A stretch of 34,875 nucleotides of DNA, taken from positions 1 through 34,875 of the forward strand of contig CAISCV010000080.1 of the NCBI GenBank assembly GCA_903883945.1, read 5' to 3'. The notes under the pieces were generated by a model, which worked only from the letters and a program-made list of their open reading frames with translations, did not search any database and was not told the origin of the DNA. Position numbers and translations under genes: made by a program. The DNA is from an uncultured Chitinophagaceae bacterium (lineage in GTDB: Bacteria > Bacteroidota > Bacteroidia > Chitinophagales > Chitinophagaceae). Position 1 is the first letter of the stretch; every line of letters begins with the position of its first letter. Shown here piece by piece: positions 4,685-34,787 of this stretch.

Positions 4685-6199
4685 TTATTTTACAGTAAAG
4701 GTAAAGTCATAAAAGTTTGCAGTAATAGTATAGGTCCCACTAGTAGCAGGAGAATTGAAATTAGTACTTAAATTATAACCAAATCTACCGCCCGAACTAG
4801 GTACAGTTCCATCTGCAACAGCATATTTATTTGCCCAGCTACCTGCGACAGGCAACATTAAGTAACTCTTGCCACCAATTAAAGGCACAGTCAATTGAAA
4901 TCTAGCAGCATCTAATTGTGTAAATGCAGGATTTACTGCAGGATTAGAGTTGCTCCAACCATCTGCTGTAGCATCACCTACTATAAATAAATTGGTAGGG
5001 AATGTGCTAGTATATGGAGTAACGGTATAAATACCATCTTGGAAATTTACTGTTATGGAATACCAGCCAGAAGCAGTAGGTGAAGGCGTATTCGACCCCG
5101 GCACATCACCATCAACTAACAAAGTGCCACCTGTGGCACTTGTACCACCATATTTATGCCCCCAATCTCCATTTACAGGAAGAATCAAATATTGACTTCC
5201 ACCAATCAAATTAAAAACACCTCCATAAGTAACTGAATCAATCTGAGCGAACTGCTGTGAAGGCACTGGCACAGGATTACTCCAACCTCCCTGTGTAGCA
5301 CTACCTACTAAAAATAAAGTGCCAGATGCAGGAGGATCAATAGCTGGTTTATTTATAGGTGTCGCAGAAACCTTTATCACATTAGAAGCCAAGGAAGTGG
5401 TGGCTATTCCTGCCAATTTTGCTACTAACCTAAATTCTACATTTGAAGAAACCCCAAGAGGGTATCCTGCTTTGAGTAACAACCTGTTAATATACTTTTG
5501 AGTGAAAGAGACAAAGGATTGAGTACTATCAATTGCCACATTTTGCAACATTGAACTAGAAAAATTACTTCCAGCTTTATCCATTTGTAAAGTATAGGAA
5601 ACAGCATTGTTTGAAGTGTTTGACTTGAAAAAATAATTTGCATTTGTCCAAGAAAATTTAACTCCTTCTGTAGTTATAGTTTTTGAATCAATTAGAATGA
5701 TGCTAGCCACGGATGAAGTTAAAACGGGATTAGTTGCACCAAGAAATGAAGCATTTACATGCAATATATTTGAATAAAGTCCTTCATTATTATTTGCGTA
5801 TGAAGAAGTTATTCTGATATCTAATGGATATGAGTAACCAACATTTAAACCAAGATTAAAAAGAATCGCATTTATTTCGTTTCCTGTAAAAGATTTAACT
5901 AATACACCAGAATAAGTAAATTTAACTGAATGTAAAAAATTCCTACCCGTAGAATCAAACTCAATTATATACTTTGTTTTAGAGGTATCTAAGTTTGAAT
6001 AATTTGGATTTGTCCACTTGAGGGTAAGCAAGCTATTTAATGAATCTGCAGGAGTTGCTGCTATTGTGTTAACAGAACTAGTTAAAGTTGATGCGCTACC
6101 TTGTTTGTAAAAAGGAAGACTATCTACTTTATTTTCACAAGCTGTAATTATTGAGAATAAAACAGCTGTTAAAGTGAGAAACTTAATGATATTTTTCAT
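4685..6199 (-). CDS. SusF/SusE-like outer-membrane glycan-binding lipoprotein (long form)
   Basis: A 504-residue lipoprotein, last gene of the Sus operon. The signal peptide ends at a lipobox with Cys21 (SIITAC). Two SusE-type N-terminal domains follow in tandem (about 35-150 and 155-285; both carry a KWTNPNY/SWTNANY motif and a Y-[IT]-[IL]-[EQ] strand). Two C-terminal carbohydrate-binding-like repeats come next, each opening with an LFLVG or LFIVG strand and a GGWSNP/DGWSNS segment (about 293-395 and 398-504). In the starch system, SusE and SusF are surface lipoproteins that hold glycan without hydrolysing it. The gene starts 27 bp after the shorter paralogue. The ligand cannot be assigned; starch-like glucans are the family default. 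Confidence 0.88.
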   Translation of the reverse strand: MKNIIKFLTLTAVLFSIITACENKVDSLPFYKQGSASTLTSSVNTIAATPADSLNSLLTLKWTNPNYSNLDTSKTKYIIEFDSTGRNFLHSVKFTYSGVLVKSFTGNEINAILFNLGLNVGYSYPLDIRITSSYANNNEGLYSNILHVNASFLGATNPVLTSSVASIILIDSKTITTEGVKFSWTNANYFFKSNTSNNAVSYTLQMDKAGSNFSSSMLQNVAIDSTQSFVSFTQKYINRLLLKAGYPLGVSSNVEFRLVAKLAGIATTSLASNVIKVSATPINKPAIDPPASGTLFLVGSATQGGWSNPVPVPSQQFAQIDSVTYGGVFNLIGGSQYLILPVNGDWGHKYGGTSATGGTLLVDGDVPGSNTPSPTASGWYSITVNFQDGIYTVTPYTSTFPTNLFIVGDATADGWSNSNPAVNPAFTQLDAARFQLTVPLIGGKSYLMLPVAGSWANKYAVADGTVPSSGGRFGYNLSTNFNSPATSGTYTITANFYDFTFTVK

Positions 6200-6226: not shown

Positions 6227-7093
6227 TTAAAGCTTTGTAACAATAAATTTACCCCTTTGAAAATCAACCTGTATTTTATATAATCCACTTACAGCAGGCG
6301 CAAGAATATCTTGCCCTTGAAACTGAAAATCACCACCATTTACTTCATTAGGATCATTCTTAGTAGCAATACTGTATTTATTAGTCCAATCGCCGTAAAC
6401 TGGAACAAAAGTGTATGAATTACCTCCTGTTAAATTTACTGTAATCTCGTATAAAGTAGCACTTAATCTAGTAAATTTTTGGCTCAAAAGTTCAGGATCT
6501 CCGCCTGCCATCCAATTTCCGGGAGTTGCACTACCAGTTATATATAATTTACCATCTCTAAATGATGAATCTGGATTGCCAGGAGGGGTGACTTTTGGAG
6601 GAATTGGATAAGGCTTAGCTAAATAAGCAATCTTGTTTGAGATTAAGGATGCACTTCCATTTATTAAATTAGATAGCACTCTGAACTCTAAATGATGATA
6701 ACTTACTATATCCAACCCAAGTTGATTCAACATGTAATCATTTAAAGCAGAATCTGTTAATGTAATAGACAAGTCCTTTGGAATTTGTAATTTTTTCAAA
6801 TTAGGGTTAGTAAAGTTTGACCCCACTGTATCTATTTCAAGCGTATACGTAACATCTTGTGAACTAATCCCAGTAGTAAACAAATAATTTGGATTTGTCC
6901 AATTAAAAATGAGTGCCGTAGCATATTCATTCGCATAAGAAATTCTGAGAGTGTCATCCTTAGAACTCGATGATATAGCTAAAACTGGTGCACTTCCTCC
7001 GTAATAATATATTTTGTTTTCATCTTTTTTGCAAGAGAAAAAAACTATACTAACAAGCATAGTAAAAAACAGACTCAATAGTACTTTATTCAT
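6227..7093 (-). CDS. SusE-like outer-membrane lipoprotein (short form)
   Basis: A 288-residue lipoprotein with a lipobox at Cys21 (VFFSC-KKDEN). It has one SusE-type N-terminal domain (about 33-160, with FNWTNPNYLF and VTYTLEIDTVGSNF) and one carbohydrate-binding-like repeat (about 178-288, opening GKLYITGSATPGNW). It is thus a half-length version of the adjacent 504-residue protein, and the two probably arose by duplication (inference). It lies 30 bp downstream of the SusD gene and 27 bp upstream of the long SusF-like gene, so it is cotranscribed with both. The product should sit on the cell surface next to the SusC/SusD transporter. Confidence 0.87.
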   Translation of the reverse strand: MNKVLLSLFFTMLVSIVFFSCKKDENKIYYYGGSAPVLAISSSSKDDTLRISYANEYATALIFNWTNPNYLFTTGISSQDVTYTLEIDTVGSNFTNPNLKKLQIPKDLSITLTDSALNDYMLNQLGLDIVSYHHLEFRVLSNLINGSASLISNKIAYLAKPYPIPPKVTPPGNPDSSFRDGKLYITGSATPGNWMAGGDPELLSQKFTRLSATLYEITVNLTGGNSYTFVPVYGDWTNKYSIATKNDPNEVNGGDFQFQGQDILAPAVSGLYKIQVDFQRGKFIVTKL

Positions 7094-7123: not shown

Positions 7124-8791
7124 TTAGAAGCCTGTATTTTGGTCTAAATTCGGATTACTATTTCTTACGCTAGATGGTATGGGAAATAAGTTATATTTAC
7201 TATCTGTTCCTGTACCTGAACTCACTCCACCTTTCCAAGGCCATAAATAGTTATTAGACGTCAAATAACCATACCTCACTAGGTCTGTTCTTCTGTGTCC
7301 TTCCCAGTATAATTCTCTTCCTCTTTCATCTAATACAAAATTTAAATCCAACTGCACAGCACTGATATTTCCCGTTGTATTACCATAAGCCCTCTGACGA
7401 AGCAGATTTACATAATCCACTGCTGTAGAACTAGAACCTCCAGCACCTCCCCTTAAAACAGATTCAGCATAAATCAAATACATTTCGGCCAAACGAAAAA
7501 CAGGAAAATCTATATCTGCGTAAGTAAAGCTTGTATGATCATTTACAGGAAGTCCGTCTGAACGAATGTTACGGAACTTATTCACATGAACTCCTGAACC
7601 TAAACTAGGAAAAACGCTTTCATTTACTGTTAATAAATCATTGGCAACTTCATTTTGTGTTGGAGAAGGTGAAAATTTAGAAGTAGTAAACATTGCCCTA
7701 GAATCTGTCAACCCACTAGGATCTGAGAATTTTGAAGACAACGCCTTAGTAGCGGTGTACCCTTTCCAACCAGCTCCACTTGCTCCGGTAAAGTAATCTG
7801 TTCCTTTGTCATCACCGCAAGCGGCATTTACTAAAAAGGTAGTATTACCATAGCCTTGAGTAACTAATCCATCACATTCTATAGCCCAGATAATTTCATT
7901 CGTGCGTTTGTCATTATCAGCCATAAATAATTGTCTGTAGTCGGAATTTAGAGCATAACCTCCATTAATTACCTTAGAAGCATAAGTAATAGCTGTATCA
8001 AAATGCTTGGTATCTGTTGGGGTATTCAAATACACATTTGCATTTAATTGTAACCTTGCCATTAAGGCCCAAGCAGCACCCCTATCTACCCTTCCGTAAA
8101 CTTGCGTTTGAGGAGCAGGCAAATCATTCTCTATTGACTTTAACTCATTCGATACATACTTAAATAAATTGGCTCTGCTTATTTGTGCGGGATTACCAGA
8201 ACCAGGTATATCATTTTCTGTAATAAAAGTTGACTTACCAAAAATATCCAGCATCACCCAATAATTGAAAGCACGTAAAAACCTAACTTCGGCACGAGAT
8301 GCCTTCAGATCGGTCAGTTGCTTAGCAGTTAACCCAATTCCTCCTAATTTTGAGTCAGATGATTGACGCAAGTACTCATTTATCAAAGTAATATTCCAAA
8401 TAGGTCTTGCATACATTCCTTTTATAAAAGGATCATCGCTAGTGTAATTTAAGTTGTGATAAGTCTTAATGGTCTGATCATTCCAAAAACATACAGCTTC
8501 ATCTGTAGTTAACTCCTGACAATTAAAGAATGGACGGATAAAAGCAATCTGTGATCCTTCGTCTAACCCACCAGATATATCTGGCGTACCAGAAGGCCCA
8601 GTATTACCACCAATCGACATGGCTCCATAAATCTTAGCCAATACACTTTGATACCCACTATATGAGTTGTAGACTTTGTTGGATGTTAAATCATTCTGTG
8701 GGAATAAATCAAGTTTCTTTTCACATGCTGATAACATCAATAAAATGCATAAGGAAAGAATGCCGTTTCTAAATATTTTATTATAGTTCAT
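7124..8791 (-). CDS. SusD/RagB family nutrient-binding outer-membrane lipoprotein
   Basis: Surface lid and substrate-binding partner of the SusC transporter. The 555-residue protein has a lipobox at Cys23 (MLSAC-EKKLDLFPQ), then the typical SusD N-terminus, where the mature protein begins with LDL-P-N-L and a YNSYSGYQSVLAKIYGAM helix. TPR-like helical regions include EVRFLRAFNYWVMLDIFG, and the C-terminal SusD/RagB segment has FRLAEMYLIYAESVLRGG, LDERGRELYWEGHRRTDLVR and the LFPIPSSVRNSNPNLDQN ending. It is separated from susC by 26 bp. The family transports glycans or peptides; the SusE/SusF partners favour a glycan. Confidence 0.94.
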   Translation of the reverse strand: MNYNKIFRNGILSLCILLMLSACEKKLDLFPQNDLTSNKVYNSYSGYQSVLAKIYGAMSIGGNTGPSGTPDISGGLDEGSQIAFIRPFFNCQELTTDEAVCFWNDQTIKTYHNLNYTSDDPFIKGMYARPIWNITLINEYLRQSSDSKLGGIGLTAKQLTDLKASRAEVRFLRAFNYWVMLDIFGKSTFITENDIPGSGNPAQISRANLFKYVSNELKSIENDLPAPQTQVYGRVDRGAAWALMARLQLNANVYLNTPTDTKHFDTAITYASKVINGGYALNSDYRQLFMADNDKRTNEIIWAIECDGLVTQGYGNTTFLVNAACGDDKGTDYFTGASGAGWKGYTATKALSSKFSDPSGLTDSRAMFTTSKFSPSPTQNEVANDLLTVNESVFPSLGSGVHVNKFRNIRSDGLPVNDHTSFTYADIDFPVFRLAEMYLIYAESVLRGGAGGSSSTAVDYVNLLRQRAYGNTTGNISAVQLDLNFVLDERGRELYWEGHRRTDLVRYGYLTSNNYLWPWKGGVSSGTGTDSKYNLFPIPSSVRNSNPNLDQNTGF

Positions 8792-8817: not shown

Positions 8818-11772
8818 TTAAAAATCAATACTCGCCCCAATTGCATACACTCTTGGTCTTGGATAGATATTTTTATCTATCCCATTACTAGCGTTCTCAG
8901 GATCTAGTCCAGTGTAATTTGTGATGACAAATACATTCTGAATACTTCCATAAATTCTTAATGCAGCCTTTTGATTCAATACCTTTCCAACATTGTATCC
9001 AAAATTGATATTATCCAAACGGAAGAAAGATGCATTTTCAATATAATAATCTGAAAATAATTGCTTGTTTACAAATCCAGTATTTGAGTAACTTCTGGAG
9101 CCATTAGAAATAACTGACCCGTTCAAAATAGAATTCTGGGTTCCATTATTTGATGCGAAATTGTTATACAAATAATTACCAAAAGAACCATGTCCAGACA
9201 GACCTAAACTATATTTCTTATAGGCAACCTGTGTGTTGAATCCTGCAAGGAGACTAGGTTGTACCGTTTTTGGATAATAATATTTTGCAGAAGTTCCATT
9301 TCTATTGATGTCTTCGTACAATCCTTCTATTGGTTTGCCTGTTTTACTATCATAAATTTGTTTATACGCATAGATGGCGTAAGGAGCGTATCCAACTTGG
9401 TGTTTTTCCAACTTATTACTTGTTCCTCCATCTAAGTTATCGCCAGCATCATTTCCTGCATAGGTAGGATCAACCACCGCGTACAGTTTTGTAATTTTAG
9501 TTGTTTGATACGTTACATTAAATCCAACATCCCATTTTAAATCTTTTTGTCTAACTGGAATGGTATTTATGACGAACTCTACCCCCTTATTTTCGATATT
9601 CCCAATATTTGAGTTTACAATTATATCATAGTTACCACCAGGAGGTTGAGGGAGACTACTGATCAAATCTGTTGTTTTCTTTTGGTAAACATCAATGCTT
9701 CCTGAAATTCTACTACCAAAGAAGGCATAATCCAATCCAAAATTCAGCGTCGCAGTTGTTTCCCATTTCAAATTTGGATTATAGGCAGAAGGACGGATGT
9801 ATTTTATTGTATCTTTTCCGAACATATAATAGGCACCTGGGTTACTTACAGAATATCTTGCTAGATAATCATAATCACCAATACCATCTTGTTGACCTGT
9901 TTTACCCCATCCAATTCGTAATTTCAGGTCGTTTATTTTATTGCTATTATTGAATAATTCGTCTTTCAACTTCCAAGCAAAGGCAAAAGCAGGAAAGTAC
10001 CCTACTCTGTTAGCAGAAGAGAATTTAGAACTTGCATCTCTTCTTAAGGAGGCTGTTAACAAATATTTATTTAACAACGTAACATTCAGTCTTGTAAAAT
10101 AAGACTCAAGCCTGTAAGTTGGTTTATCTGTTGCATAATTAGGTAGTGTATTTGCAATGGTATCTCCATTCAATTTATAGTTAGGGAAATTATATACATC
10201 AGTCTCAAAGTTTTGATAGCTATGACCAGCTAACACATCAAACTTCAAATCTTTTAATTCCTTTGTGTAGAATAAAGACGTTTCTAACAACTGACTTGCC
10301 TTGTCTTGTTTATACGGGTTTCTTCTACCTCTGGTATTATATTGTGTTACAATAACAGAATCGTAATGATCACTCCCTGTTTGATAGGCCAAGTCAGTAC
10401 CTGCATTAACCATTACATGCAAATCTGGTAGAAAGTGTAGTTTGTAATCTAATTGAATGTTTCCAATAAACCTGTTTACCGTTTCCTTATTGTTCCTAAA
10501 TTTCAACATACTCAGAGGATTTGGAAAACTTGCATTACCATTATTTCCAATTGGAGTACCATCAGCATTTAACCATTCAAAGTATCCACCATATTTATTT
10601 TTTTGGTTGATAGCTTGTGTTGGATCAAATGTAGCAGCAGCTCCAACAGCCCCTCCGTCGGCATGACGATATTTGGTGTTTGCATACTTTGCATTCACGT
10701 TAATAGTTAAATGATCTGTAAACAATTTAGGGGAAAGGTTCAAAGCAACTGCATTTCTATCAAACTGGTCTGTCAGTACAATACCACTTTGACTTAAATT
10801 TTCCAAAGACAAACGGAAGGGAAGCACTTTAGCAATCGAGCCACTTGCGCTAATATTTTTGTCCCAACCTATGGCCTTTTGATAAATTTGCTTTTGCCAA
10901 TCTGTATTTGCAGTACCCAACTGTGCAATTTGAGCAGCATTGCCTTTAGCTTTTACAATACTTCTAATTTCATCTCCATTAAATACATCTACATATTTAG
11001 TTATTTCTCCAACGGAGAATAAGGTATTAAAGTTAAACTTAACAGCCCCTTTACTTCCTTTTTTTGTAGTGATTACAATAACACCGTTAGAAGCCCTTGA
11101 ACCATACATGGCAGTTGAAGACGCATCTTTCAATACACTCATAGACTCTATGTCATTTGGATTAATTGTATTTAAAAGATTACCCCCACCGTTAATTCCA
11201 TTACCATCCACAGGAACCCCATCAATAACTATCAATGGATCATTACTTGCATTTAGTGAAGATCCTGTACGAATACGTATCGTACTTCCACCACCTGCGC
11301 TACCACCTCCTGATGTTATTTGCAACCCGGCTACCTTACCTTGAATCAATTGTTCGGACGAGTTAATGTTTCCCTGTTGAAAATCTTTTGCAGAAACGGA
11401 TGTAACAGAACCGGTTAAATCGCCTTTCTTTCTTGTCCCATAAGCAACTACCACCACATCACTAAGTGCCGCATTCGATTGTACCAAACTCACTGTAACT
11501 GGAGAATTGCTAGCAACAACTTCTTGTTTTGCATAGCCAATAGAGGTAAATACCAAGATAGCATCTCCATCTACCCTCACTTTAAAACTACCATCTACAG
11601 CAGTTTGTGTCGCATTCTTCGAACCCTTTACTTGTACTGTAATGCCAGACAAAGGCGTCCCATCTTTTGAATCGGTTACCTTTCCGGTAACAACTCTTTC
11701 TTGTGCAAAAGCTGTCATGCCGCAGATAACTGTCAACATAAGCAGCAAAGCAATCAATCGTTTAAAATTCAT
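8818..11772 (-). CDS. SusC/RagA family TonB-linked outer-membrane transporter
   Basis: First gene of the operon; a 984-residue TonB-dependent importer. Domains in order: signal peptide (1-23, cleavage after TAFA), a carboxypeptidase-D-like regulatory domain (about 27-112, VTGKVTDSKDGTPLSGITV and ILVFTSIGYAKQEV), the SusC segment VVVVAYGTRKKGDLTGSV (about 118), the plug (IRGRT-like IRIRTGSSLNASNDPLIVIDG and SMSVLKDASSTAMYGSRASNGVIVITT) and a long beta barrel ending YPRPRVYAIGASIDF. There is no N-terminal STN signalling domain, so control through an anti-sigma/ECF pair is not suggested. With the next three genes it forms a SusCDEF uptake unit. Confidence 0.96.
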   Translation of the reverse strand: MNFKRLIALLLMLTVICGMTAFAQERVVTGKVTDSKDGTPLSGITVQVKGSKNATQTAVDGSFKVRVDGDAILVFTSIGYAKQEVVASNSPVTVSLVQSNAALSDVVVVAYGTRKKGDLTGSVTSVSAKDFQQGNINSSEQLIQGKVAGLQITSGGGSAGGGSTIRIRTGSSLNASNDPLIVIDGVPVDGNGINGGGNLLNTINPNDIESMSVLKDASSTAMYGSRASNGVIVITTKKGSKGAVKFNFNTLFSVGEITKYVDVFNGDEIRSIVKAKGNAAQIAQLGTANTDWQKQIYQKAIGWDKNISASGSIAKVLPFRLSLENLSQSGIVLTDQFDRNAVALNLSPKLFTDHLTINVNAKYANTKYRHADGGAVGAAATFDPTQAINQKNKYGGYFEWLNADGTPIGNNGNASFPNPLSMLKFRNNKETVNRFIGNIQLDYKLHFLPDLHVMVNAGTDLAYQTGSDHYDSVIVTQYNTRGRRNPYKQDKASQLLETSLFYTKELKDLKFDVLAGHSYQNFETDVYNFPNYKLNGDTIANTLPNYATDKPTYRLESYFTRLNVTLLNKYLLTASLRRDASSKFSSANRVGYFPAFAFAWKLKDELFNNSNKINDLKLRIGWGKTGQQDGIGDYDYLARYSVSNPGAYYMFGKDTIKYIRPSAYNPNLKWETTATLNFGLDYAFFGSRISGSIDVYQKKTTDLISSLPQPPGGNYDIIVNSNIGNIENKGVEFVINTIPVRQKDLKWDVGFNVTYQTTKITKLYAVVDPTYAGNDAGDNLDGGTSNKLEKHQVGYAPYAIYAYKQIYDSKTGKPIEGLYEDINRNGTSAKYYYPKTVQPSLLAGFNTQVAYKKYSLGLSGHGSFGNYLYNNFASNNGTQNSILNGSVISNGSRSYSNTGFVNKQLFSDYYIENASFFRLDNINFGYNVGKVLNQKAALRIYGSIQNVFVITNYTGLDPENASNGIDKNIYPRPRVYAIGASIDF

Positions 11773-11876
11773 AGTCGAAAATTTACTGGTTAATGTAAAA
11801 TGTTTAGTAATAACTGTGTGTTTAAGTGAAAAACAATTTTTATGTATCTGTGGAGTAATGATTGGTGTAATGGGTA

Positions 11877-11884
11877 CAAATGTG
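11877..11884 (-). promoter_or_regulatory. Candidate susC promoter (-7 element)
   Basis: On the minus strand the sequence is CACATTTG, one mismatch from TAnnTTTG, with GTTG about 18 bp upstream as a possible -33 element. A start near 11870 would give a leader of about 100 nt, and the operator-like dyads would then lie about 110-160 bp upstream of the start, a place suited to an activator. The match is weak. Confidence 0.25.
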
Positions 11885-11982
11885 TTTGTATGAATGGTCT
11901 ACCAACAACCGTGGCAAATAGCAGTATTGTAACAATCGTAACTTCATACAAGCTTTTTTAGTAGTGCAATCGACTTAACTAA

Positions 11983-12030
11983 TGTGTACTTTTAACACAT
12001 TCTGACACAAAGATGTGTATTTTTTACACA
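11983..12030. promoter_or_regulatory. Two tandem operator-like dyads upstream of susC
   Basis: Two copies of TGTGT-N7-ACACA are present: 11983-11999 with spacer ACTTTTA, and 12014-12030 with spacer ATTTTTT. The first extends to a 7-bp perfect arm (AATGTGT with ACACATT, 11981-12001). Their starts are exactly 31 bp apart, about three helical turns, so both would face the same side of DNA. This is the geometry of paired binding sites for a dimeric regulator. The regulator is not encoded in this window. Confidence 0.45.
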
Positions 12031-12342: not shown

Positions 12343-12573
12343 TTTCAACATCGCATGTCGTTTATCCAACATCGCATGTCGATTATCCAACATCGCATGT
12401 CGATTATCCAATATCATGTGTCGATTATCCAACATCATGTGTCATTTATCCAACATCATGTGTCATTTATCCAACATCATCTGTCGATTATCCAACATCA
12501 TGTGTCGATTATCCAACATCATGTGTCGATTATCCAACATCATGTATCGAAATTCTAACGTCGGGGATCGAAT
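12343..12573 (+). repeat. 21-bp tandem repeat array (11 units), built from heptamers
   Basis: Eleven head-to-tail 21-bp units, phase starts at 12343, 12364, 12385 and so on to 12553; the first, tenth and last are divergent. A typical unit is ATCCAACATC followed by ATGTGTCGATT. Each unit splits into three heptamers sharing the pattern xTCxxxx: ATCCAAC, then ATCATGT or ATCGCAT, then GTCGATT. Neighbouring variants cluster (ATCGCAT types to the left, GTCATTT types in the middle), as expected from local duplication. Each unit holds the small dyad ACATcATGT or ACATCGCATGT. All three plus-strand frames stay open only because the period is a multiple of three. There are no spacers, so it is not a CRISPR array. 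Confidence 0.85.
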
Positions 12574-17155: not shown

Positions 17156-17584
17156 ATGATAAAAGTTAACTACCCCCCATTTCGCTACAATATAAAGGGT
17201 GAAGAAAACAAGGAACTTATCTTTGATGAAGTACGAAAAAGGTGGGTACGATTAACACCAGAGGAATGGGTACGGCAGAACATGATACAATATTTACTAC
17301 AAGTGCTTACATATCCTGCATCGCTATTATCTATAGAAAAAGAACTAAAACTTGGAGAATTACGAAAACGTTGCGATGTGATTGTTTATAAAGGAGTTTC
17401 CCCATGGATGATTATAGAATGCAAAGAACCAAATGTTCCGTTATCGGAAAAGACACTACAACAGATATTACGTTATCACCTTGCCATACCTGTACCCTAT
17501 CTGTGTCTTACAAATGGTAATAATGTTTACCTTTTCGAGAAAATAAACAATAACTTCAAAGAAATAGGTGAATTTCCCAAATAA
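17156..17584 (+). CDS. Small protein with type I restriction HsdR N-terminal-like nuclease domain
   Basis: A 142-residue protein made only of the HsdR N-terminal domain, a PD-(D/E)xK nuclease fold. The active-site pattern is visible: RKRCD74-VIVY, then MIIE88-C-K90, with Glu62 in EKEL as a possible first helix residue. The segment WVRQNMIQYLLQVLTYP and the C-terminal LCLTNGNNVYLFEK also fit. There is no helicase part, no HsdM or HsdS nearby, and the gene ends normally, so it is not a recently truncated HsdR. Solitary copies of this domain occur in many Bacteroidota and their function is not established. It diverges from amn with 54 bp between starts. Confidence 0.8.
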   Translation: MIKVNYPPFRYNIKGEENKELIFDEVRKRWVRLTPEEWVRQNMIQYLLQVLTYPASLLSIEKELKLGELRKRCDVIVYKGVSPWMIIECKEPNVPLSEKTLQQILRYHLAIPVPYLCLTNGNNVYLFEKINNNFKEIGEFPK

Positions 17585-24733: not shown

Positions 24734-25447
24734 TTATCTCGATGTCTTTCTAAAGCCGTTAATATTCAACAATTGAGCATAGCCATAGGAAAGCAAGACA
24801 ACCATTTCGAACCTGGGTGTAAATAATTTGTACCTATTAAATACAAAAAGAATTACGGAGAGAAGCGACAAAAAGGAGGCTGGAAGAAAGTATTTTATAC
24901 TCAACCTTTTTTTACTATTACTATCCAAAATATTGGTAGCAAATCCTACTGTAAGAATAAAACTTTCTATAAATAGTACAAAGGGTGTCTTGAATGATAA
25001 TATATAACTATGACTTATAAATTGAAAAAACATGAAATAAATCAATACACAGCCCAAAGAAAAAGTAATAGAGGGAAATACAGCCTTTGATAGGTTAATT
25101 TTTCTAATTTTAGCATAACAAAGCATGTAAAAAACGTTTGCTATTATACAAGCTCCTAAGCATATTAACAATGGATTATCTTTTTCGATACCGTTTCTGG
25201 TGTCACCAATAATAAATATCCTAAAAATATCTGATACCCATAGAAATCCAATAGCCGTAAAAAAGTATGTAACAAGTAATTTGGAATGTGTTGGCTTGAT
25301 ATTTAAATACAAATATAAACCTAAAACTGGCATTAGTAATGCTCTAACGATTGAAGCTGCTAAAAAATATTCCTCAAAAATGAGTACGCAACCTGTTATG
25401 AGCATTATCCAATATAACAAAAATATCAACGTTCTTGCGCTATCCAT
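24734..25447 (-). CDS. YhhN family integral membrane protein (lysoplasmalogenase-like)
   Basis: A 237-residue polytopic membrane protein with about eight hydrophobic segments. It fits YhhN/TMEM86: early RALLMPVLGLYLYLN (family K/R-P-x-x-MP pattern), FLWVSDIFRIF, then LLICLGACIIANVFYMLCYAKI, matching the family's glycine-then-FY segment, and a C-terminal SYGYAQLLNINGF. Characterised members cleave the vinyl-ether bond of lysoplasmalogens, but bacterial roles vary. Sequence similarity is by eye only. It is convergent with mtaB (6 bp) and divergent from the next gene. Confidence 0.55.
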   Translation of the reverse strand: MDSARTLIFLLYWIMLITGCVLIFEEYFLAASIVRALLMPVLGLYLYLNIKPTHSKLLVTYFFTAIGFLWVSDIFRIFIIGDTRNGIEKDNPLLICLGACIIANVFYMLCYAKIRKINLSKAVFPSITFSLGCVLIYFMFFQFISHSYILSFKTPFVLFIESFILTVGFATNILDSNSKKRLSIKYFLPASFLSLLSVILFVFNRYKLFTPRFEMVVLLSYGYAQLLNINGFRKTSR

Positions 25448-33368: not shown

Positions 33369-33396
33369 CTAACCACTAAGTACTAACCACTTTTAC
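33369..33396. repeat. Degenerate 7-bp repeat tract
   Basis: Heptamers in phase: CTAACCA at 33369, CTAAGTA at 33376, CTAACCA at 33383 and CTTTTAC at 33390. It lies between the terminator and the stop codon of the minus-strand gene. Confidence 0.45.
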
Positions 33397-34355
33397 AATA
33401 CTTTTATCGTAATATCTCCTTTTATTCTTTCGTCGGGGTTACAGATATTCAGGAAGCTTTCTTTGGTATTATCACCCATGTCAACAAGGTTATAAATACC
33501 GTCACTTTCGGGAGGTATTGATACAAACTTAGTACCTACTAAGCCATATCTTGAAACCGACAAAAATATTTTCATAGTGTTATTGGCTCTGCTGATTATC
33601 TGAAACTGTTGTGTAAGCGGATTTGCGAAAGTACGTTTGAGGCCATTTTTGGTTGAAAACTTCTTCACCTTCAGGTTAAAAACTATCTGTGGCTTATTAG
33701 TTAAATAAGCTTCATCAAAATATTTAGCTGCCAAAGCGGGATTGGCTTTGTAGGCATTAATTAGCAATCCATAGTTGCCTTCTATCTCATCGCACATTGC
33801 TATGCGGGCTGTTTCTACAGCAGCGCTATCAGTGATAGTCGATTCTTTAGAGGTTCCTTTGGTGCCATAAGCCAACAGCATAGCGGTGTAGAATGTTTGT
33901 ATTACTATTTTTACTGCGGCAAGGCTTGCGTCTGTGCCAATGGTGGTAAGCAATGTTTTCACAGCATTTACCCTGTTCTGCTGTTTGCCCTTGTTGAGGG
34001 TTGATTTTCCTTTGGAAAACAATTCTACCCATCGGATGCTTCCTTCGTTGTACACCACCTCAATGGCTGTTTGCCATTTCTTTACTTCTGCAGGCATCGC
34101 ATCCAATATCTGCGTGAAAGACAAAACGTTACCCCCTTGTATGTCTGATTGACTGGCGTGTGCTACCCTTGCTGCTTCAAAAATGTCGTACTTAGGTTTT
34201 ACATTGTTGTAACAGGTGAGTGCAATGGCCGATGTGGTGCTGTCTGCAAACAAGCTGTTGCAATGATTTAACCCAAATTCGGATGCTGCGGTGAAGTTGC
34301 CTCTTGTGGAAGTTTCGAAACGATTAACGAATAATCCTATTGGTTTGTCTGCCAT
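33393..34355 (-). CDS. Uncharacterised 320-residue protein
   Basis: I do not recognise a family. There is no signal peptide or transmembrane helix, so the product is likely cytosolic. The N-terminal two thirds look alpha-helical, with the repeated alanine-rich helices AVKTLLTTIGTDASLAAVKIVIQTFYTAMLLA and AVETARIAMCDEIEGNYGLLINAY. The last about 100 residues look like a beta sandwich: PQIVFNLKVKKFSTKNGL, LTQQFQIISRANNTMKIFLSVSRYGLVG, ending in short strands to DITIKVL. That C-terminal part could be a ligand- or partner-binding domain (inference). The start MADKPIGLFVNRFET is clear, with no good upstream alternative. It is bounded by a bidirectional terminator downstream and tandem 118-bp repeats upstream, so it is transcribed alone. 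Confidence 0.8.
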   Translation of the reverse strand: MADKPIGLFVNRFETSTRGNFTAASEFGLNHCNSLFADSTTSAIALTCYNNVKPKYDIFEAARVAHASQSDIQGGNVLSFTQILDAMPAEVKKWQTAIEVVYNEGSIRWVELFSKGKSTLNKGKQQNRVNAVKTLLTTIGTDASLAAVKIVIQTFYTAMLLAYGTKGTSKESTITDSAAVETARIAMCDEIEGNYGLLINAYKANPALAAKYFDEAYLTNKPQIVFNLKVKKFSTKNGLKRTFANPLTQQFQIISRANNTMKIFLSVSRYGLVGTKFVSIPPESDGIYNLVDMGDNTKESFLNICNPDERIKGDITIKVL

Positions 34356-34523
34356 GATACAAGTTTTGAAAAATGAATAAATACTTTTTCTACTCCAACT
34401 GTAACTAGGGAAATGAGGGGGCAGGTTTAGTTGTCGACCTAACTTAGATAATTAAGTTGCAAATGTAGCCTATTAGAAGTGGGGAATAGGGTATTTAGAA
34501 CAATTAGGAAAAATAAATATTTA

Positions 34524-34787
34524 TTAACGTTCCCGAAATCCTGCGGCGTCATTTCGAGGCACGAGAAATCTCACCGGATATTGGGAGCGAAATAGAAGAA
34601 TGAGATTTCTCCTAAGGTCGAAATGACGGTCGTTTTGTTTTTTAACGTTCCAGAAATCCTGCGGCGTCATTGTAAGGCACGAGAAATCTCACCGAATATT
34701 GGGAGCGAAATAGTAGAATGAGATTTCTCCTAAGGTCGAAATGACGGTCGATTTGTTGTTTAACGCTCCCTAAATCCTGCGGCGTCA
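34524..34787. repeat. 118-bp tandem repeat, two full copies and one partial
   Basis: Copies begin at 34524, 34642 and 34760 (exact 118-bp period) with TTAACG; the third stops near 34787. Inside copy 1 two nested inverted pairs are perfect: CGTCATTTCGA (34547-34557) with 34618-34628, and GAGAAATCTCA (34563-34573) with 34601-34611. Copy 2 keeps the inner pair but its outer left arm has drifted (CGTCATTGTAA). Each copy could fold into a long hairpin. No ORF is present. The remaining bases of the 34356-34858 gap are AT-rich; a 6-bp dyad, AACTTA/TAAGTT, lies near 34440-34457. Confidence 0.85.

Follow-up and report, generated by a model that had tools for sequence, protein, structure and literature searches.

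Twin TGTGT-N7-ACACA dyads upstream of susC as probable paired operators of an AraR-like NrtR-family repressor of starch genes in Chitinophagaceae

The susC operon and the dyads upstream of it

The window, by which we mean the whole stretch of 34,875 bases analysed here, carries four minus-strand genes headed by susC (8818-11772), which encodes a TonB-linked outer-membrane transporter of 984 aa (NCBIfam TIGR04056, 655.4 bits for a cut-off of 368.25). It is followed by a susD homologue (7124-8791; NCBIfam NF033071 SusD, 401.5 bits, under its cut-off of 725), a gene for a SusE-like protein (6227-7093; Pfam SusE PF14292, 54 bits, cut-off 25.2) and another for a SusE/F-like protein (4685-6199; Pfam SusE PF14292 98.9 bits and SusF_SusE 29.9 bits). 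Rfam analysis of the window revealed nothing at gathering score, and a tRNA search of the same stretch gave none.

Upstream of this operon, TGTGTACTTTTAACACA (11983-11999) and TGTGTATTTTTTACACA (12014-12030) are the only matches to TGTGT-N7-ACACA in the window. The two dyads have equal arms and equal spacer length and start 31 bp apart, as an earlier note on this DNA had described, and they lie 211-258 bp upstream of susC (start at 11772, minus strand), in agreement with the 210-260 bp that it had estimated. The pattern is expected 0.03 times per shuffle, and two sites appeared in none of 100 dinucleotide shuffles of the window; this result, together with the exact conservation and spacing at susC described below, leaves a negligible probability to chance dyads in AT-rich DNA. 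On the minus strand, reading towards susC, the promoter-upstream copy (dyad 1, 12014-12030) is TGTGTAAAAAATACACA and the promoter-downstream one (dyad 2, 11983-11999) is TGTGTTAAAAGTACACA, the latter separated from the susC start by a leader of about 210 nt (11773-11982). A longer form, TGTGTA-N5-TACACA, is conserved in relatives and is preceded by TT at susC, the dyad at 11983 being one position off this form.

Conservation was analysed in the 13 genomes of the genus, 10 of which have a susD orthologue (E of 1e-100 or lower); the other three, without a susD match, were left out of the susC alignment. From 12 candidate loci, one (L159) was dropped for having no susC match, and the 11 aligned regions comprise all 10 susD-bearing genomes of the genus and one genome from another genus (G058). 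Most of these loci were chosen through the motif, yet no susD-bearing genome of the genus is missing from them. All 11 regions showed a 12/12 dyad at the position of dyad 1 and a second one (11/12 or 12/12) at exactly 31 bp, so that the conservation upstream of orthologous susC genes, proposed earlier as a check, was indeed found. Moreover, the sequence TTGTGTAAA-N-A-[AG]-TACACAT[AC]TTTG is identical across the 11 regions, with flanks that mostly diverge.

Sites in the same genome and in relatives

A scan of the 4.09-Mb genome, also suggested in the earlier note, detected 11 exact TGTGT-N7-ACACA sites versus 3 for the reversed control. Eight of them are located upstream of susC (2), GH13 genes (4, on contigs C53, C63, C113 and C30, in the last of which the site at 24978 has the GH13 gene behind it), a malQ gene encoding a CBM20-GH77 protein (1, C211) and a gene for a Nudix-winged-helix regulator (1, C93). 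No labelled starch-type or regulator gene was found downstream of the exact sites on C100, C241 and C281. Four of the six GH13 loci found in the genome thus have the exact pattern upstream; it is absent upstream of the other two, C241:20032 and C267 (the latter with CBM48, amylase and amylase-C domains), and the genome's own phosphofructokinase (PFK) and phosphorylase genes showed no site either.

A search of the same genome allowing two mismatches was too loose (198 matches versus 167 in the control), so the sites with one change from TGTGTA-N5-TACACA on C128, C183 and C204, among the matches listed, rest on their target genes: a fragment of an MFS sugar transporter at a contig end (C128), a SusE/F-domain protein gene at 275 bp, with another gene 214 bp away on the opposite side (C183), and a GH31 gene (C204). 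Membership of the regulon was judged improbable for the exact sites on C100 and C281 and for the one-change sites on C269 and C51. On C241 (L016:3079), a perfect TGTGTATTTAATACACA is followed at about 65 bp by a 1004-aa frame that has no Pfam match, and sites also precede large proteins in L087, L088 and L126 (PATR repeats, metallophosphatase, G8/TIG domains); these frames may be further members of the regulon.

A similar analysis was carried out in relatives, where 64 of the 77 exact TGTGTA-N5-TACACA sites outside the window's own genome were taken up from the places listed, in 60 stretches. A starch- or sugar-type gene was present within 400 bp downstream of 50 of these 64 sites, the labels being SusC (22), GH13 (12), MalQ (5), phosphorylase (3), MFS (3), PFK (2), regulator (2) and GH97 (1). 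Of the 22 proteins labelled SusC, 12 share at least 40% identity with the window's SusC and 10 fall below 40%; seven of the 50 labels match a reference protein that comes from their own locus (among these, L113:4216 also matches the regulator); Pfam assigned those seven references to MFS, phosphorylase, GH97, PFK and three alpha-amylase proteins. In a second set (the genus plus G021, G136, G143 and G150), 42 of 59 sites were upstream of a starch- or sugar-type gene, three of the 42 being labelled first with ligA while the regulator lies on the opposite side; one locus (L169) is common to both sets. The remaining sites (14/64 and 17/59) had no starch-type label or fell inside a frame, with three in-frame sites in each set (3/64 and 3/59), of which that in L164, from the second set, is still 55 bp upstream of a regulator gene. 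Single sites in relatives were also found upstream of an aldolase and of a ROK-family kinase. The regulon thus varies between species, since the window's genome has no site at PFK or phosphorylase genes.

These targets bear on the resemblance to CRP sites that the earlier note had hinted at. TGTG and CACA are indeed common to the dyad arms and to CRP, but the family-wide form has TGTGTA/TACACA arms and spans 17 bp, whereas the CRP site TGTGA-N6-TCACA has other arms and spans 16 bp, and the labelled targets are alpha-glucan and sugar genes. A CRP/FNR-type regulator is consequently a very improbable binder and that hint finds no support; the best candidate is an AraR-like protein of the NrtR family.

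In addition to the dyads, two short words were observed in the leaders of operator genes, counting related genes apart: GATTGCT in the 110 bp before the start codon of 14/150 operator genes versus 4/479, and TGCTTG within the same distance in 20/150 versus 6/479. GATTGC is also present at positions 11966-11971 of the window (minus strand) and in many target leaders, such as those of L014, L090, L093, L102 and L208. These words may mark either an additional element of the regulon or a translation start that the genes share.

The candidate regulator and its distribution

The candidate regulator (P0001; contig C93, 7764-8504) showed matches to Pfam PF00293 (34.3 bits, cut-off 21.1), PF21906 (85.2, cut-off 27) and PF19368 AraR_C (36.1, cut-off 23.8). 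This combination of an N-terminal Nudix-like domain and a C-terminal NrtR winged helix places it in the NrtR family, and no other NrtR_WHD protein was found in the genome. By inspection, its Nudix signature is degenerate, RILKERTGM in place of the REUXEEXGU of the family (PMC4666351), and presumably inactive. An NrtR of the NAD type was rejected as an assignment, as NCBIfam NF050029 gave only 118 bits versus a cut-off of 400; NrtR of NAD metabolism differs from the C93 protein in governing NAD genes, with ADP-ribose (PMC4666351). Its representative SoNrtR (3gz5/3gz6), also a Nudix domain plus winged helix, is the second-nearest solved structure, at 28-29% identity.

The nearest solved structure is AraR of Bacteroides thetaiotaomicron (BtAraR; phmmer E 1.3e-49), closeness being judged by phmmer and Foldseek, whose top hits for the predicted model (mean pLDDT 85) were to 5bs6, at about 36% identity. 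BtAraR (BT0354; PDB 5bs6, 5dd4, 5ddg, 5deq) belongs to the NrtR family, and its crystallised operator contains GTGTTACTTTTACAC, that is, GTGT-N7-ACAC (PMC4666351), which equals that of the window's GTGTACTTTTAACAC. Its contacts with DNA are Lys179, Arg180, Asn181, Lys184, Lys204 and Arg205 (PMC4666351); in the C93 regulator R180, N181, K184 and R205 are identical, with K179 replaced by R and K204 by H. The corresponding residues (R197, R198, N199, K202, H222 and R223 in C93 numbering) are invariant in 16/16 aligned orthologues. For this mapping the chain index equals the paper number plus 3, and residue types agree with the paper at all 18 places. The likeness extends to fold, domain order, operator, tandem sites at target promoters and DNA contacts kept or conservatively changed.

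The sugar pocket showed a different picture. Arg86, His131, Phe129 and Val92 are retained, so that two of the three polar arabinose-binding residues (Arg86 and His131) are kept, whereas Arg34 is replaced by Ser, Phe36 by Leu and Gly48 by Asp; at the Arg34 position, 14 of the 16 orthologues have Ser and the other two Cys. These changes would fit a sugar different from arabinose. An AraR orthologue responding to arabinose was rejected on the loss of Arg34 and on the labelled targets, which are starch and sugar genes, in a labelling that did not use arabinose-gene names. Spacing differs too: the dyads here are mostly 31 bp apart from start to start, and the 21-bp sites of AraR are 3 bp or 42 nt apart (PMC4666351).

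Regarding its own control, the C93 gene is preceded by a site, TGTGTATTTTATACACA, whose first base is 83 bases ahead of the start codon. An own-gene site (10/12 or better) is present in just 7 of 30 orthologues, every one among the 12 closest, and one at 11/12 in 22 of the 78 named loci.

An orthologue of the regulator (55% identity or more) was detected in 39 of 60 family genomes, with G014 and G023 counted as positive despite stop codons inside the matched stretch. The 39 positive genomes contain 78 exact TGTGTA-N5-TACACA sites (reversed control, 5), with at least one in 28 of them and none in 11, and the 21 negative genomes contain 6 (control 0), found in only three: G043 (83% complete) with four, and G009 and G053 with one each. 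The Fisher test for co-occurrence across the 60 genomes (p 2.8e-5) is inflated by relatedness. Across 119 genomes of the order, 33 sites were found in the 11 from the window's own family (control 1) and 16 in the 108 others (control 30), and regulator matches of 53% or more occurred, among the matches listed, only in that family, the others reaching at most 51%.

Flanks were viewed for 28 of the 39 regulator loci, and in 17 of these 28 genomes a GH13 gene or a susC (40% identity or more) is found no more than about 9 kb from the regulator; of the 20 fetched by the regulator alone, 11 have such a neighbour. In relatives the genes often run ligA - amylase - regulator - susCDEF, and both the amylase gene and susC are then preceded by sites; the window's genome has the regulator next to ligA, with the sus operon on a separate contig. 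Ferruginibacter paludis, Segetibacter aerophilus and Sediminibacterium magnilacihabitans also showed GH13 or susC neighbours. With 6 kb taken on each side, the 47 full-length named loci included ligA in 41 cases, a GH13 or susC neighbour (the latter at 40% or more) in 20 and at least one site of 11/12 in 28; no such starch neighbour was found within 6 kb in 27 of them and no site in 19, and Sediminibacterium roseum, soli, ginsengisoli and goheungense had neither within that distance. Taken together, the 78 named loci contain 67 sites of 11/12, compared with 18 on the reversed sequence.

It could be argued that the dyads are operators of some other dimeric regulator of starch genes (LacI/MalR type, GntR or TetR), the Nudix protein being merely adjacent. 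In one relative (L080) susC does adjoin a gene that looks LacI-like by eye in its first residues, and an exact site is missing from some regulator-positive genomes. A central CG, usual in LacI sites, is however absent from the dyads. Linkage, own-gene sites and co-occurrence all favour the Nudix regulator, whose closest characterised relative, BtAraR, reads the same GTGT-N7-ACAC (PMC4666351), and we consider a different regulator clearly improbable.

The sites, their conservation and spacing, their targets, the linkage and co-occurrence with the regulator and its residues, all obtained by computation, point instead to the C93 protein. The proposal that the dyads are sites of a dimeric regulator of the susC operon is strongly supported by this comparison, both by conservation and by the other sites near glycan genes, whose absence the earlier note had named as its refutation. 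They are very probably operators, and we estimate at roughly 0.85 the probability that they are paired operators of this AraR-like NrtR-family repressor, running a starch/maltodextrin regulon.

Promoter architecture and proposed mode of control

The Bacteroidetes -7 promoter consensus is TAnnTTTG. T[AC]TTTG directly follows dyad 1 in all 11 susC regions, with dyad 2 starting 8 bases past it, and it resembles this element; in the window, the candidate, recognised by resemblance, is CATCTTTG (12008-12015, minus strand), which overlaps the end of dyad 1 by two bases. The earlier note had placed the dyads above the best candidate promoter, which is probably wrong, as the conserved -7-like TTTG sits between them. 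Across all targets, -7 boxes beside dyads were found in 42 of 61 cases versus a shuffle mean of 27 and a maximum of 39, a modest enrichment in which one of the offsets counted overlaps the dyad. Boxes after the dyad alone (14; shuffle maximum 19) or before it alone (35; maximum 35) did not exceed the shuffles, and exact TANNTTTG gave no more than scattered matches beside the dyads. As the relaxed count only modestly beats the shuffles, the promoter reading rests on the susC alignment.

Regarding spacing, 165 distinct sites of 11/12 or better included 22 pairs with a partner within 75 bp, 13 of them at 31 bp and the rest at 24-30, 38 and 55 bp. Twelve of the 13 pairs at 31 bp are susC regions, ten from one genus, and are not independent. 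The spacing on which the earlier note had based cooperative binding is thus kept, which fits cooperation but does not demonstrate it; the 31 bp could also be fixed by the promoter element between the dyads.

In the mechanism that we propose, one dimer would bind each TGTGTA-N5-TACACA dyad, and the pair of dimers, sitting on roughly the same side of the helix, would flank the -7-like TTTG and cover the core promoter of susCDEF, shutting it off. A starch-derived sugar, with maltose, glucose or a derivative as candidates, would then fill the Nudix pocket and shift the winged helices as in BtAraR, and the genes would be switched on. Repression with release is the likely mode because BtAraR loses affinity for DNA with its sugar (PMC4666351), and the TTTG between the dyads fits repression.

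The same regulator could instead act as an activator, or dyad 2 could be a roadblock in the leader rather than part of a promoter block. The susC dyads are more than 200 bp upstream, a distance that suits a simple operator poorly if the leader is short, the promoter position is itself deduced, and the -7 enrichment across targets is modest. Nevertheless, the TTTG is kept between the dyads in 11/11 susC regions, many non-susC targets have their site 20-60 bp from the start codon, and the affinity of BtAraR for DNA is lost with its sugar. We regard activation or a roadblock as unlikely, though with some weight, and retain repression by paired operators.

Control of sugar genes by the NrtR family is already known for arabinose (AraR, tested) and predicted for xylose (XylR). 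XylR (BT0791) of B. thetaiotaomicron belongs to the same divergent Bacteroidetes sugar branch of the family, a likeness drawn from its description (PMC4666351, PMC3878776). The C93 regulator differs from BtAraR in that its predicted targets are starch genes, and its effector would be a starch product. It is filed, apart from AraR, as a putative member of the AraR-like branch whose target pathway is new, because our search of open-licence papers found no NrtR/Nudix regulator of starch.

The homologous starch operon of B. thetaiotaomicron is governed by SusR, a membrane-spanning activator whose predicted sites are direct repeats centred 67 or 77 bp from each other (PMC3878776). A site of that type was excluded here, where the dyads are 17-bp inverted repeats paired at 31 bp. 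We find it reasonably probable that Chitinophagaceae, judging by the named relatives, use a soluble Nudix-fold starch sensor in place of SusR, which would make starch a third NrtR sugar besides arabinose and xylose, with a fixed two-operator susC promoter and a regulon that reaches phosphofructokinase, an aldolase and a ROK-family kinase in some species. This would suggest that one Nudix fold senses different sugars while the head that reads GTGT stays. If true, this identifies the regulator together with its operator, its likely regulon and the positions to mutate, and starch control could be tested in Sediminibacterium, Segetibacter, Ferruginibacter or Chitinophaga.

Other features were observed in the window and the genus. 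Tandem arrays in which the period is 21 bp, equal to two helical turns and seven codons, or a multiple of it (42, 63, 84, 105, 126) occur in this genome and across the genus, many of them seemingly intergenic: in the window at 12356-12550, and at L015:1007-1240, L019:10432-10629, L021:1816-1899, L024:1-292, L025:5097-5428, L027:1445-1691, L188:2926-3054, L192:4175-4551, L199:2807-2999 and L205:2604-2739. Their unit sequences vary by locus, and arrays with other periods are also present. In addition, a 142-aa protein (window 17156-17584) matches the N-terminal domain of type I restriction R subunits, the rest of the subunit being absent. Proteins of 320 aa, alike by eye, lie beside repeats in the window (33393-34355) and at L017:7017-7979 and L025:5725-6687, with no Pfam match in the two that were scanned. 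Finally, positions 34520-34787 of the window comprise 2.3 copies of a 118-bp repeat.
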